From positions 1 to 61,028 of IMG/VR virus record IMGVR_UViG_3300036774_000039: a stretch of DNA of 61,028 bases. One strand, written 5' to 3'. Position numbers and translations under genes: made by a program. Each line of letters opens with the position of its first letter. The stretch's first letter is position 1. This stretch comes from a virus. This document shows, piece after piece, positions 8,984 through 24,947 of the stretch. The notes under the pieces are model-generated. The model saw nothing but the letters and a program-made list of their open reading frames with translations. It was not told the DNA's origin and did no database searches.

Positions 8984-9012
8984 TTGACTTTTTGTTGTAC
9001 GGGAGGTATATT
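8984..9012 (+). promoter_or_regulatory. Early promoter P2 (replication gene)
   Basis: TTGACT (8984-8989), 17-base spacer, TATATT (9007-9012). The CTATTGAC extension is shared with the other early promoters. Transcription should begin near 9018-9020, giving a leader of about 145 bases before the replication gene. Confidence 0.85.
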
Positions 9013-9017
9013 CGCAA

Positions 9018-9145
9018 TGTCGAAGTCGTGTGTGTGGCGTTTCCATCTAATCGTTAAAGATGGCCCGAATTCGGGAATCTAGGCGCGGTGGGAAACCACC
9101 AAAGTCTCCACACAGACTTTCGACACGCTTAGGTTTCCGAATTCG
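9018..9145 (+). ncRNA. Highly structured RNA leader with a three-way junction
   Basis: Between promoter P2 and the replication gene the transcript can form a 20-bp helix, 9066-9085 with 9126-9145. Three of its pairs are G-U wobbles, a pattern expected of RNA selected for structure. It encloses two perfect hairpins: GGTGG-GAAA-CCACC (9087-9100, a GNRA tetraloop) and AAAGTCT-CCACAC-AGACTTT (9101-9120). The 5' segment 9018-9037 is complementary to 9108-9125, so GTGTGG (9032-9037) can pair with the second loop as a pseudoknot or drive an alternative fold. The element ends 6 bases before the AAGGA ribosome-binding site. It could be a cis-regulator, a stable RNA, or part of a replication origin. 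A 21-codon reading frame at 9017 begins at the transcription start and is probably not translated. Confidence 0.75.
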
Positions 9146-9162
9146 TGCTTTAAGGACCCTCA

Positions 9163-9900
9163 ATGAAATGGTTTAAGCATATGGCAGACGCAAATCGAGA
9201 CGATAAAATCGTATCCATCCGGTCGAAATTCGGGATGTGGGGGATCGGGGTCTACTGGACCCTAGTGGAGAAGGCCGCCGAGCAGATGAAGGGAAAGATG
9301 CCGACGCCGGTCGCCGTTCTTTCGGTGAACGAAACGGTTTCGTTATGCAAATGTAAGCGGAACAAACTCGTTTCATTCCTGTTTGCTTTGCAGAAGCAAC
9401 GCGGAATCAAATACGAACTGAATGGGGACATACTGAAGATCGAAATCAAAAAACTATTGGAAATAAAGGATAACTATCTATCTGACTTGGAAGAAACTTC
9501 CAAGCGACTTCCAATCAAAGAAGTAGAAGAAGAAGTAGAAGTAGATAAAGAAAGAGATAGGGAGGTTTCAGAGGCCATAATCATCCCCCTGCAGATGCCA
9601 CCCACCCTTACCGCAGTCGATGGATTCCAGGAGGTCTGGATGGAGTGGGAAGCCGAGAGGAGGCTGAAGAAGAAACCCCTCACCGACCGGGCCCGGAAGA
9701 TGCAATGGAAATTCCTGATGACAACCCCGAACCCGAAAGCAGTAGTCGAGGCATCAATCCAAAACGGCTGGCAAGGATTATTTCCCCTGAAGGAGCAAAA
9801 TGGAAAAGGTAACGGAGCGGTTAATCGTCAAAACGCTCGAGAAGTCTTCGATGCCGATACACTCAAACGACTCATTGAGCGTACTCCCCCCTCCTCCTAA
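9163..9900 (+). CDS. Phage replication initiator-like protein (DUF4373/DnaD-type)
   Basis: A 245-aa protein. The N-terminus (MKWFKHMADANRDDKI, FGMWGIGVYWTLVEKAAEQM) is the winged-helix domain of the Lin1244/DUF4373 family found in phage replication initiators and DnaD-like loaders. An acidic linker lies at about 118-138 (VEEEVEVDKERDREV), and the C-terminal part (FQEVWMEWEAERR, KKKPLTDRARKMQWKFL) resembles the region that contacts helicase or origin DNA. ATG 9163 has AAGGA at 9152-9156. In many phages the origin lies within or beside this gene. It is expressed from P2 through the structured leader. Confidence 0.8.
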   Translation: MKWFKHMADANRDDKIVSIRSKFGMWGIGVYWTLVEKAAEQMKGKMPTPVAVLSVNETVSLCKCKRNKLVSFLFALQKQRGIKYELNGDILKIEIKKLLEIKDNYLSDLEETSKRLPIKEVEEEVEVDKERDREVSEAIIIPLQMPPTLTAVDGFQEVWMEWEAERRLKKKPLTDRARKMQWKFLMTTPNPKAVVEASIQNGWQGLFPLKEQNGKGNGAVNRQNAREVFDADTLKRLIERTPPSS

Positions 9901-10869: not shown

Positions 10870-10898
10870 TTGACAAAGGCGTCTGAGTGTGTTATCTT
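10870..10898 (+). promoter_or_regulatory. Early promoter P3
   Basis: TTGACA (10870-10875), 17-base spacer, TATCTT (10893-10898). It shares CCCTATTGACAA with the leftward promoter and TTGTGTG after the -10 box with P1. Confidence 0.88.
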
Positions 10899-10927
10899 GT
10901 GTGTGCCGATAAAAGAAAGGGAAAACC

Positions 10928-19358: not shown

Positions 19359-19609
19359 AATGTAAGTATTGCCCCCAGGAGATCGACTGGAAGCCCACGG
19401 TACGAGGGAAGAATATGTGTGTCGAGGCCCATCCCTACATCCGAGACGGATCAGAACCGCCCCGCAAAGGGACGTACATCGACGAGACTGGCGTGACGTA
19501 TCGGGAGACGCAAGTCCCCTGCAAGGTAAACGTCTGGCGCTGCCACTGGTCCGACTGTCCCGGTTCTGAGGAGGCGAGGAAGCAAAAAGCCCCGCCGAAG
19601 CGGGGCTAG
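19355..19609 (+). CDS. Zinc-ribbon protein at the end of the rightward accessory operon
   Basis: An 84-aa protein starting MKCKYCPQEIDW with a later WRCHWSDCPG; two CxxC-type knuckles can hold zinc. Its stop TAG (19607-19609) overlaps the stop of the convergent leftward gene in the palindrome CTAG, and its last codons lie within the terminator stem. Unknown function. Confidence 0.6.
   Translation: MKCKYCPQEIDWKPTVRGKNMCVEAHPYIRDGSEPPRKGTYIDETGVTYRETQVPCKVNVWRCHWSDCPGSEEARKQKAPPKRG
19583..19607 (-). terminator. Terminator of the leftward operon
   Basis: On the minus strand an 8-bp stem AGCCCCGC/GCGGGGCT with a TTCG tetraloop (19588-19607) is followed by TTTTT (19583-19587). UUCG loops with a U-run are a strong intrinsic terminator. 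On the plus strand no U-run follows the stem, so rightward termination would be weak. Confidence 0.88.
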
Positions 19610-19704
19610 TTAAACAGCCTATGTAGGAGTCGGAGGAGAATCAGGAGCCCTGCGAGTAGTGCAACCCAGACTACTGCAGGGCTCCGGCGCTTTCGTCGCC
19701 TCAA
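19606..19704 (-). CDS. 32-aa basic membrane peptide
   Basis: A TTG start overlaps the stop of the upstream gene (TTGA) and follows TGGAGG by 5 bases. The product opens with RRRKRRSP, then one transmembrane helix, VVWVALLAGLLILLRLL, then HRLFN. Its stop TAG shares CTAG with the convergent rightward gene, and the terminator stem begins in the stop. A long hairpin, GGAGCCCTGC with GCAGGGCTCC plus AGTAGT with ACTACT (19644-19685), lies in the coding sequence. Too short for routine calling; topology suggests a holin-like or membrane-signalling peptide, which is inference. Confidence 0.6.
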   Translation of the reverse strand: MRRRKRRSPAVVWVALLAGLLILLRLLHRLFN

Positions 19705-19916
19705 TCGGCCTCCAGGGTAAAAGATTCCAGAGGATCGGTCATTTCATCGCCATTGATGAAAGCCTCGACTGAGACATTCCCTCGATCATCCTTCAGGATA
19801 TAGATAACGAAGTCCCCCGCTTCGATCCAACATGAGGTCCCGTTGAGGATGAAGTCGCTCCCCGAGTCGTTGTCGGCCTCTTCGAGAACCGGCAGGTCTG
19901 CAGTATGCCGTAGCAT
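19701..19916 (-). CDS. Hypothetical conserved phage protein
   Basis: A 71-aa acidic protein with LNGTSCWIEAGDFVIYILKD and SVEAFINGDE; I recall the LNGTSCWI...GxFxVYI pattern from many small phage proteins. ATG 19916 has AGGAG seven bases upstream. An in-frame ATG at 19955 has GGAGGAGG too close to it, and its extra residues read like the CA-repeat leaders of the other genes here. Confidence 0.6.
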   Translation of the reverse strand: MLRHTADLPVLEEADNDSGSDFILNGTSCWIEAGDFVIYILKDDRGNVSVEAFINGDEMTDPLESFTLEAD

Positions 19917-19964
19917 CGTCATTCTCCTTTCGCTTTGGTGTGTGTGTGGATTCATAGCCTCCTC

Positions 19965-20904: not shown

Positions 20905-20926
20905 AACTACCTCCCTTGTGTGTGTG

Positions 20927-24620: not shown

Positions 24621-24947
24621 ATGCGTGGACAGAACCAGAAATTGAAGGACCCGACGAAGCCGGCAGACACGATGGGTCACGTTCGCAAGACGCTCCTGAA
24701 CACATGGCGCCTGAAGAGGCCGGGGTGGACGCCGAAGAAATTCCGGGATATGAGAAAGGCCCTGGGGATGACACAGGCCGAGTTTGCCGAGGCCGCTGGC
24801 ATTTCGCCGAGGAAGGTGTTATCTTGGGAGAGCCCGAGTAGCAGTCAGGGGAGGCTCCCGAAGGAGGCGATGGTCGTGATCGAGTTTGTCCAGGATCAGG
24901 TCGTAAAAAAGGCGGGCGAGACTCTGACCAACGCGAAGGCCGAATAA
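24621..24947 (+). CDS. XRE/Cro-type helix-turn-helix regulator
   Basis: A 108-aa protein. Residues about 40-70, FRDMRKALGMTQAEFAEAAG followed by ISPRKVLSWES, form the classic Cro/CI helix-turn-helix. The basic N-terminus may add DNA contacts. Placed between the terminase and lysis genes, it could control late transcription or the leftward promoter; this is inference. Confidence 0.7.
   Translation: MRGQNQKLKDPTKPADTMGHVRKTLLNTWRLKRPGWTPKKFRDMRKALGMTQAEFAEAAGISPRKVLSWESPSSSQGRLPKEAMVVIEFVQDQVVKKAGETLTNAKAE

Follow-up and report, generated by a model that had tools for sequence, protein, structure and literature searches.

The untranslated leader of the replication initiator gene of an uncultured phage folds, in prediction, into a branched RNA whose loop and junction are complementary to the expected start of the same transcript, and the initiator is probably restrained by this RNA acting as a C4/CI-like antisense RNA. 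The leader was found in a phage genome record from IMG/VR (61,028 bases), which was analysed over its whole length and is referred to below as the window. Branched leaders of comparable architecture were identified upstream of homologous initiator genes in other viral contigs.

As the earlier note had placed it, the RNA lies between a strong promoter and the replication gene (Table 1). The promoter puts the start of transcription at approximately 9018–9020, as expected from the consensus, and transcripts would therefore begin with the 5′ segment. On the minus strand, a scan of the leader found no promoter at the threshold used. The N-terminus of the encoded initiator matches Lin1244_N (Pfam PF14297, E 1.3e-5) and its C-terminus is O-like (PHROG 678, E 9e-11).

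Table 1. Features of the leader and its surroundings, in window coordinates.
Feature	Position	Strand	Basis or remark
Sigma-70-type promoter, TTGACT-17-TATATT	8984-9012	+	consensus scan, 10/12 matches
5′ segment, TGTCGAAGTCGTGTGTGTGG	9018-9037	+	begins ~7 nt past the -10 box
5′ target part TGTCG	9018-9022	+	complement of junction CGACA; counterpart of P1 a1
5′ target part GTGTGG	9032-9037	+	complement of loop CCACAC; counterpart of P1 b1
Linker hairpin, CCATCT-AATCGTTAA-AGATGG	9043-9063	+	predicted folds
Basal helix P1, 5′ strand	9066-9085 (can extend to 9063)	+	20 pairs with 9126-9145
P2 hairpin, GGTGG-GAAA-CCACC, GNRA tetraloop	9087-9100	+	MFE and centroid fold
P3 hairpin, AAAGTCT-CCACAC-AGACTTT	9101-9120	+	loop 9108-9113 complementary to 5′ target
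3′ junction strand CGACA, 5 nt	9121-9125	+	pairs with TGTCG 9018-9022
Basal helix P1, 3′ strand	9126-9145 (can extend to 9148)	+	pairs with 9066-9085
Ribosome-binding site of initiator gene, AAGGA	9152-9156	+	sequence
Replication initiator gene, 245 aa, presumed regulated gene	9163-9900	+	
Candidate second target inside initiator gene, GTCG-n10-TGTGG	9222-9240	+	element order as in 5′ target

The minimum free energy (MFE) and centroid folds both consist of the basal helix, the GAAA hairpin, the CCACAC hairpin and the CGACA junction. The basal helix has 20 continuous pairs with three G-U pairs and no mismatches, and all coordinates held for the arrangement described in the earlier note, a 20-bp helix enclosing two hairpins of which one is GNRA-capped. 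The region 9000–9170 folds at -60.5 kcal/mol, compared with -45.2 ± 4.0 kcal/mol for dinucleotide shuffles (z -3.8; 0/200 shuffles). After correction for GC content the leader ranks with the strongest 130-nt folds in the genome, and no other inverted repeat detected in the window has arms nearly as long as those of its helix. When the isolated RNA was modelled, the P3 loop had a predicted unpaired probability of 1.0 and the CGACA junction of at least 0.98.

The 5′ segment pairs with 9106–9125, covering the whole CCACAC loop, as had been proposed from inspection of the sequence. The pairing of 9018–9065 with the inner region was calculated at -30.5 kcal/mol, which is significant against shuffled segments (z -3.6, p 0.004). 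When the core of the RNA (9102–9125) was compared with every 30-nt stretch of the genome on both strands, the 5′ segment ranked first of 40,627 for complementarity. Among distinct sites of the genome, 9222–9240 inside the initiator gene comes next (overall rank 5 of 40,627). This site encodes an invariant GMWG protein motif and may be a coincidence. Downstream pairing in the window was not significant (p 0.62), and no second target was detected at its ribosome-binding site.

To place these values, C4 of phage P1 was fetched as a positive control (68.8 bits on the Rfam C4 model). Near its 5′ end the P1 transcript carries target a1 (TTGACAG) followed by b1 (GTTAGTGC), and C4 itself has a basal stem and two hairpins, one capped by TTCG and one with CACTAAC in its loop (pairing with b1), together with a 3′ junction CTGTCAA (pairing with a1). 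Both known P1 targets were recovered, the 5′ target with p 0.008 in the shuffle test and rank 3 in the site scan, the downstream target with p 0.01 and rank 1, indicating that the tests behave correctly on a known case. The window resembles the C4 locus of P1 and P7 (RF01695) in the series of promoter, two-part target near the transcript 5′ end and three-stem RNA. Moreover, the predicted topology is the same as that of P1 C4, with the tetraloop hairpin, the target loop and the unpaired 3′ junction in the same order, and the loop and junction pair with the two-part 5′ target in the same nested order. In contrast to C4, the RNA of the window is not recognised by the RF01695 covariance model, the downstream gene is an O-like initiator rather than the icd-ant (antirepressor) operon, and the second target that P1 has at a ribosome-binding site is absent. 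Processing of C4 by RNase P and the C4 loops have been described (PMC5320573). A GGC at 9062–9064 adjoins the stem base in the window, and the 5′ end of C4 is an RNase P cut at GGW.

Relatives of the RNA were sought by family models and by sequence similarity. Rfam searches at gathering and E-value thresholds returned no relevant family for the window, for 14 homologous loci or for 12 loci of known phages, and the C4 model gave no match to the window stretch or to its relatives even at E values up to 10. Since this model recognises none of these RNAs, the data support the statement that the RNA works like C4, whereas membership in RF01695 is not supported. Comparison with phage and plasmid DNA yielded only chance-like matches of 20–23 nt, and a scan of viral contigs with exact patterns for the hairpin core found none. 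A 23-nt exact match between 9087–9109 and the opposite strand of a single-stranded RNA phage coat gene (E 0.04) probably arose by chance from the hairpin. Two other identities were considered and rejected: an HDV-like ribozyme, suggested by the pseudoknot order, for which there is neither an equivalent of P4/J4-2 nor a transcribed 5′ leader to cleave, and a phi29-type packaging RNA, as the terminase and capsid genes found here are of another type.

The capsid gene of this phage is common to only two viral contigs. The larger of these capsid relatives (a 65.6-kb record containing loci L014–L017, approximately 70% capsid identity) has a different replication module and no match to the leader RNA; by eye, this module encodes DnaB-, primase- and polymerase-like proteins, with an LVIVD-repeat protein in place. 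The two phages thus differ by a module exchange around the same structural genes.

Because the RNA had neither an Rfam match nor a DNA relative and the phage is rare, the initiator gene was taken as the anchor for relatives, and profile searches of viral contigs recovered more than 30 homologues. A scan for single long stems, which did not require 5′ complementarity, was then applied to 226 kb of homologous loci. Six of the 30 long stems detected were located within 200 nt upstream of an initiator gene on the coding strand, where 0.45 would be expected (Poisson P ~8e-6), and the same position is occupied by each of the five strongest coding-strand stems in the complete set of loci. One of the six, in L056, is the 5′ duplex itself and not the basal stem. 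With weaker stems counted, a branched leader was present in 8 of ~34 loci (the window, L025, L027, L047, L051, L053, L056 and L060). Most are preceded by a recognisable promoter, with that of L027 being poor and L047 having only a -10 box; L027 also lacks the tetraloop hairpin. Thus the absence of conservation in relatives, which the earlier note had named as evidence against its reading, was not what was found: the architecture recurs upstream of homologous initiators, without alignable sequence.

Complementarity to the 5′ end varied among these leaders. The 5′ target ranked first within its own locus in L056 and L060 and within the top 0.5% in L027, while L047 and L053 showed little 5′ complementarity; in L025 the best-ranked complement is formed by the ribosome-binding site, which in P1 is where the second target lies. 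Shuffle tests gave p 0.10 for L025 and p 0.07 for L060. These shuffle p-values, like that of the window given above, are not independent of selection, since leader boundaries were set by hand and the descriptor scan that first found L056 and ranked L027 required 5′ complementarity; the stem-only enrichment is independent of selection. With an automatic 5′ test applied to the stem-only set, significance was reached for the window (p 0.005) and for no other locus (L060, p 0.06). A U run follows the basal stem in L053, L060 and L056; in these loci intrinsic termination could produce the 3′ end of the RNA, with the initiator message arising by read-through.

The leaders have no mutual DNA similarity (at most 10 nt in common by BLAST), and the near-duplicate records L051/L052, L034/L035 and L056/L067 are identical across the RNA, making classical covariation analysis impossible. 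Most known isolates with the same initiator domain (from Vibrio, Escherichia, Pantoea and Pseudoalteromonas) had no comparable leader stem, and in these phages the initiator gene mostly overlaps or closely trails an upstream gene, which in several is KilA, Rha or an antirepressor. In four such loci (L079, L084, L086, L087) the Vibrio-phage initiator gene (DUF4373) overlaps or directly follows a Rha/KilA antirepressor gene, and an antirepressor is the kind of gene controlled by C4 in P1. A search of 398 genomes from the phylum of L024 yielded too few homologues.

The same base pairs that would serve an antisense RNA could act in cis only, as a co-transcriptional attenuator that releases no free RNA. 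Here the 5′ pairing would delay the basal helix, and pausing, termination or processing would depend on timing or on the binding of a ligand or protein, the initiator itself being one candidate. Calculated folding of the growing transcript is consistent with such a switch, as the 5′ duplex is the best fold for transcript ends between ~9120 and 9140 and the branched fold appears later; in L056, moreover, no helix of the leader is stronger than the 5′ duplex, which adjoins a terminator-like stem. However, once the last 20 nt of the window leader have been made, the branched fold is favoured by ~14 kcal/mol. The competing folds proposed in the earlier note are therefore borne out for intermediate transcripts, the competition in these calculations being transient only. 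Accessibility of the ribosome-binding site (unpaired probabilities, 9150–9169) was about equal in both forced folds, which goes against the riboswitch-like leader that had also been suggested and makes a translational cis switch unlikely here; action in trans or by termination fits better. No U run follows the basal stem of the window, and a simple attenuator does not need the C4 layout, in which loop and junction match their targets in the same order. Taken together, we regard control purely in cis as rather unlikely.

We consider it improbable that the RNA acts on RNA polymerase or binds a phage protein, as in put-like antitermination or an initiator-binding operator, with the 5′ complementarity arising as a by-product. 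The put sites of phage HK022 are strongly folded RNAs at the start of operon transcripts, and the window RNA is likewise strongly folded and right at an operon transcript start. Yet such a function leaves unexplained that, of all sites in the genome, loop and junction are best matched by the 5′ end of their own transcript, and that the same relation is seen in L027, L056 and L060.

A DNA element, either an extruded hairpin of an origin or a single-strand initiation site, would accord with the adjoining initiator gene and the long inverted repeat, and is nevertheless very improbable. Across the six gap-free basal helices with equal-length arms, wobble positions held 12 G-U and no A-C combinations (14:2 when the unequal, out-of-register arms of L027 and L053 are included), which argues that the plus-strand RNA is under selection. 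The plus-strand fold is also much stronger than that of the minus strand, and a promoter is located immediately upstream. These observations support selection acting on RNA rather than on DNA structure, as the earlier note had argued from the wobble pairs. There is no iteron array, only short two-copy direct repeats, and no sign was found of an origin element or of a primer, both of which had been listed as options. Finally, a chance structure without function, for which one could cite the single genome and the RNA's want of a sequence homologue, is hard to reconcile with the fold z-score, the first-ranked target genome-wide and the enrichment upstream of homologous genes, and we give it very little credence.

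The evidence thus points, among the options listed in the earlier note, to a stable or antisense control RNA. Transcription would begin at ~9018, and the 5′ segment could capture the inner region by pairing immediately upon its emergence. The basal helix would then take over, exposing the CCACAC loop and the CGACA strand. Processing or termination would set free the branched RNA (~9063–9148), whose loop and junction strand could bind the first 20 nt of later transcripts from the same promoter. Through this pairing the initiator message would be cut off, with premature termination as in P4 the most likely mode and a translation block as in P1 the other; P4-like termination is a better guess than a translational cis switch. 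Against this reading, the window's own stem is followed neither by a terminator-like U run nor by a clear RNase P signature, its ribosome-binding site has no second target, the C4 model gives no match, and 5′ complementarity is slight in L047 and L053. The presumed outcome is negative feedback on initiator synthesis, serving either superinfection immunity or the control of timing or copy number. A lysogenic role is unproven, since no integrase, resolvase or ParA was found in the record. A small ORF at 24621–24947 matches HTH_3 (E 2e-7) and is a possible repressor.

The proposed antisense control has a precedent in P4, where CI RNA prevents expression of the replication genes of the phage itself through premature termination, by pairing with sequences both upstream and downstream of itself in the same transcript (PMC4825925). 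As with CI, the window has a structured RNA in the leader of a replication gene or operon, with a complementary site further upstream in that transcript, whereas a downstream partner comparable to seqC is represented by a weak candidate (9222–9240). This likeness concerns the type of regulated gene and the layout. Leaders of plasmid rep genes are known to use pT181-type attenuation or, in IncB/IncI repZ, a pseudoknot, with the antisense RNA made from the opposite strand. The window shares with them an RNA structure ahead of the rep gene and mutually exclusive folds; unlike them, its inhibitor would come from the same strand.

Several other signals were noted in the genome. Runs of (GT)n occur at or near the start of several plus-strand promoters (2600–2612, 9028–9037, 10898–10905), and (CA)n just past minus-strand promoters of minus-strand genes (19938–19949, 20917–20926); TGTGTGTG occurs 6 times against 1.1 expected. 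These repeats may be a shared promoter-proximal signal or further loop targets. The strongest fold of the genome after GC correction is at 19560–19720 on the plus strand, between apparently convergent genes, where a long hairpin, GGAGCCCTGC..GCAGGGCTCC, comes after a terminator-like AAAAAGCCCCGCCGAAGCGGGGCTAG.

For tailed phages, RNA-based control of immunity and replication has been described in a handful of enterobacterial systems (C4 of P1/P7 and CI of P4). If the same layout holds in unrelated uncultured phages that share no sequence, such control is more widespread than family models detect, and a dozen nucleotides might suffice to tell phage compatibility groups apart. A cheap search rule also follows, namely to look for a branched stem whose loop and junction are complementary to the 5′ end of the transcript upstream of it. 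More tentatively, these phages may possess a sequence-independent form of autogenous antisense control, in which a leader-derived RNA, cut or terminated from the initiator message, pairs with the start of sister transcripts and limits its own gene, while the pairing letters drift freely and possibly constitute a code for incompatibility or superinfection exclusion. If so, a C4/CI-like class would, on several occasions, have arisen or become unrecognisably divergent upstream of Lin1244-type initiators.
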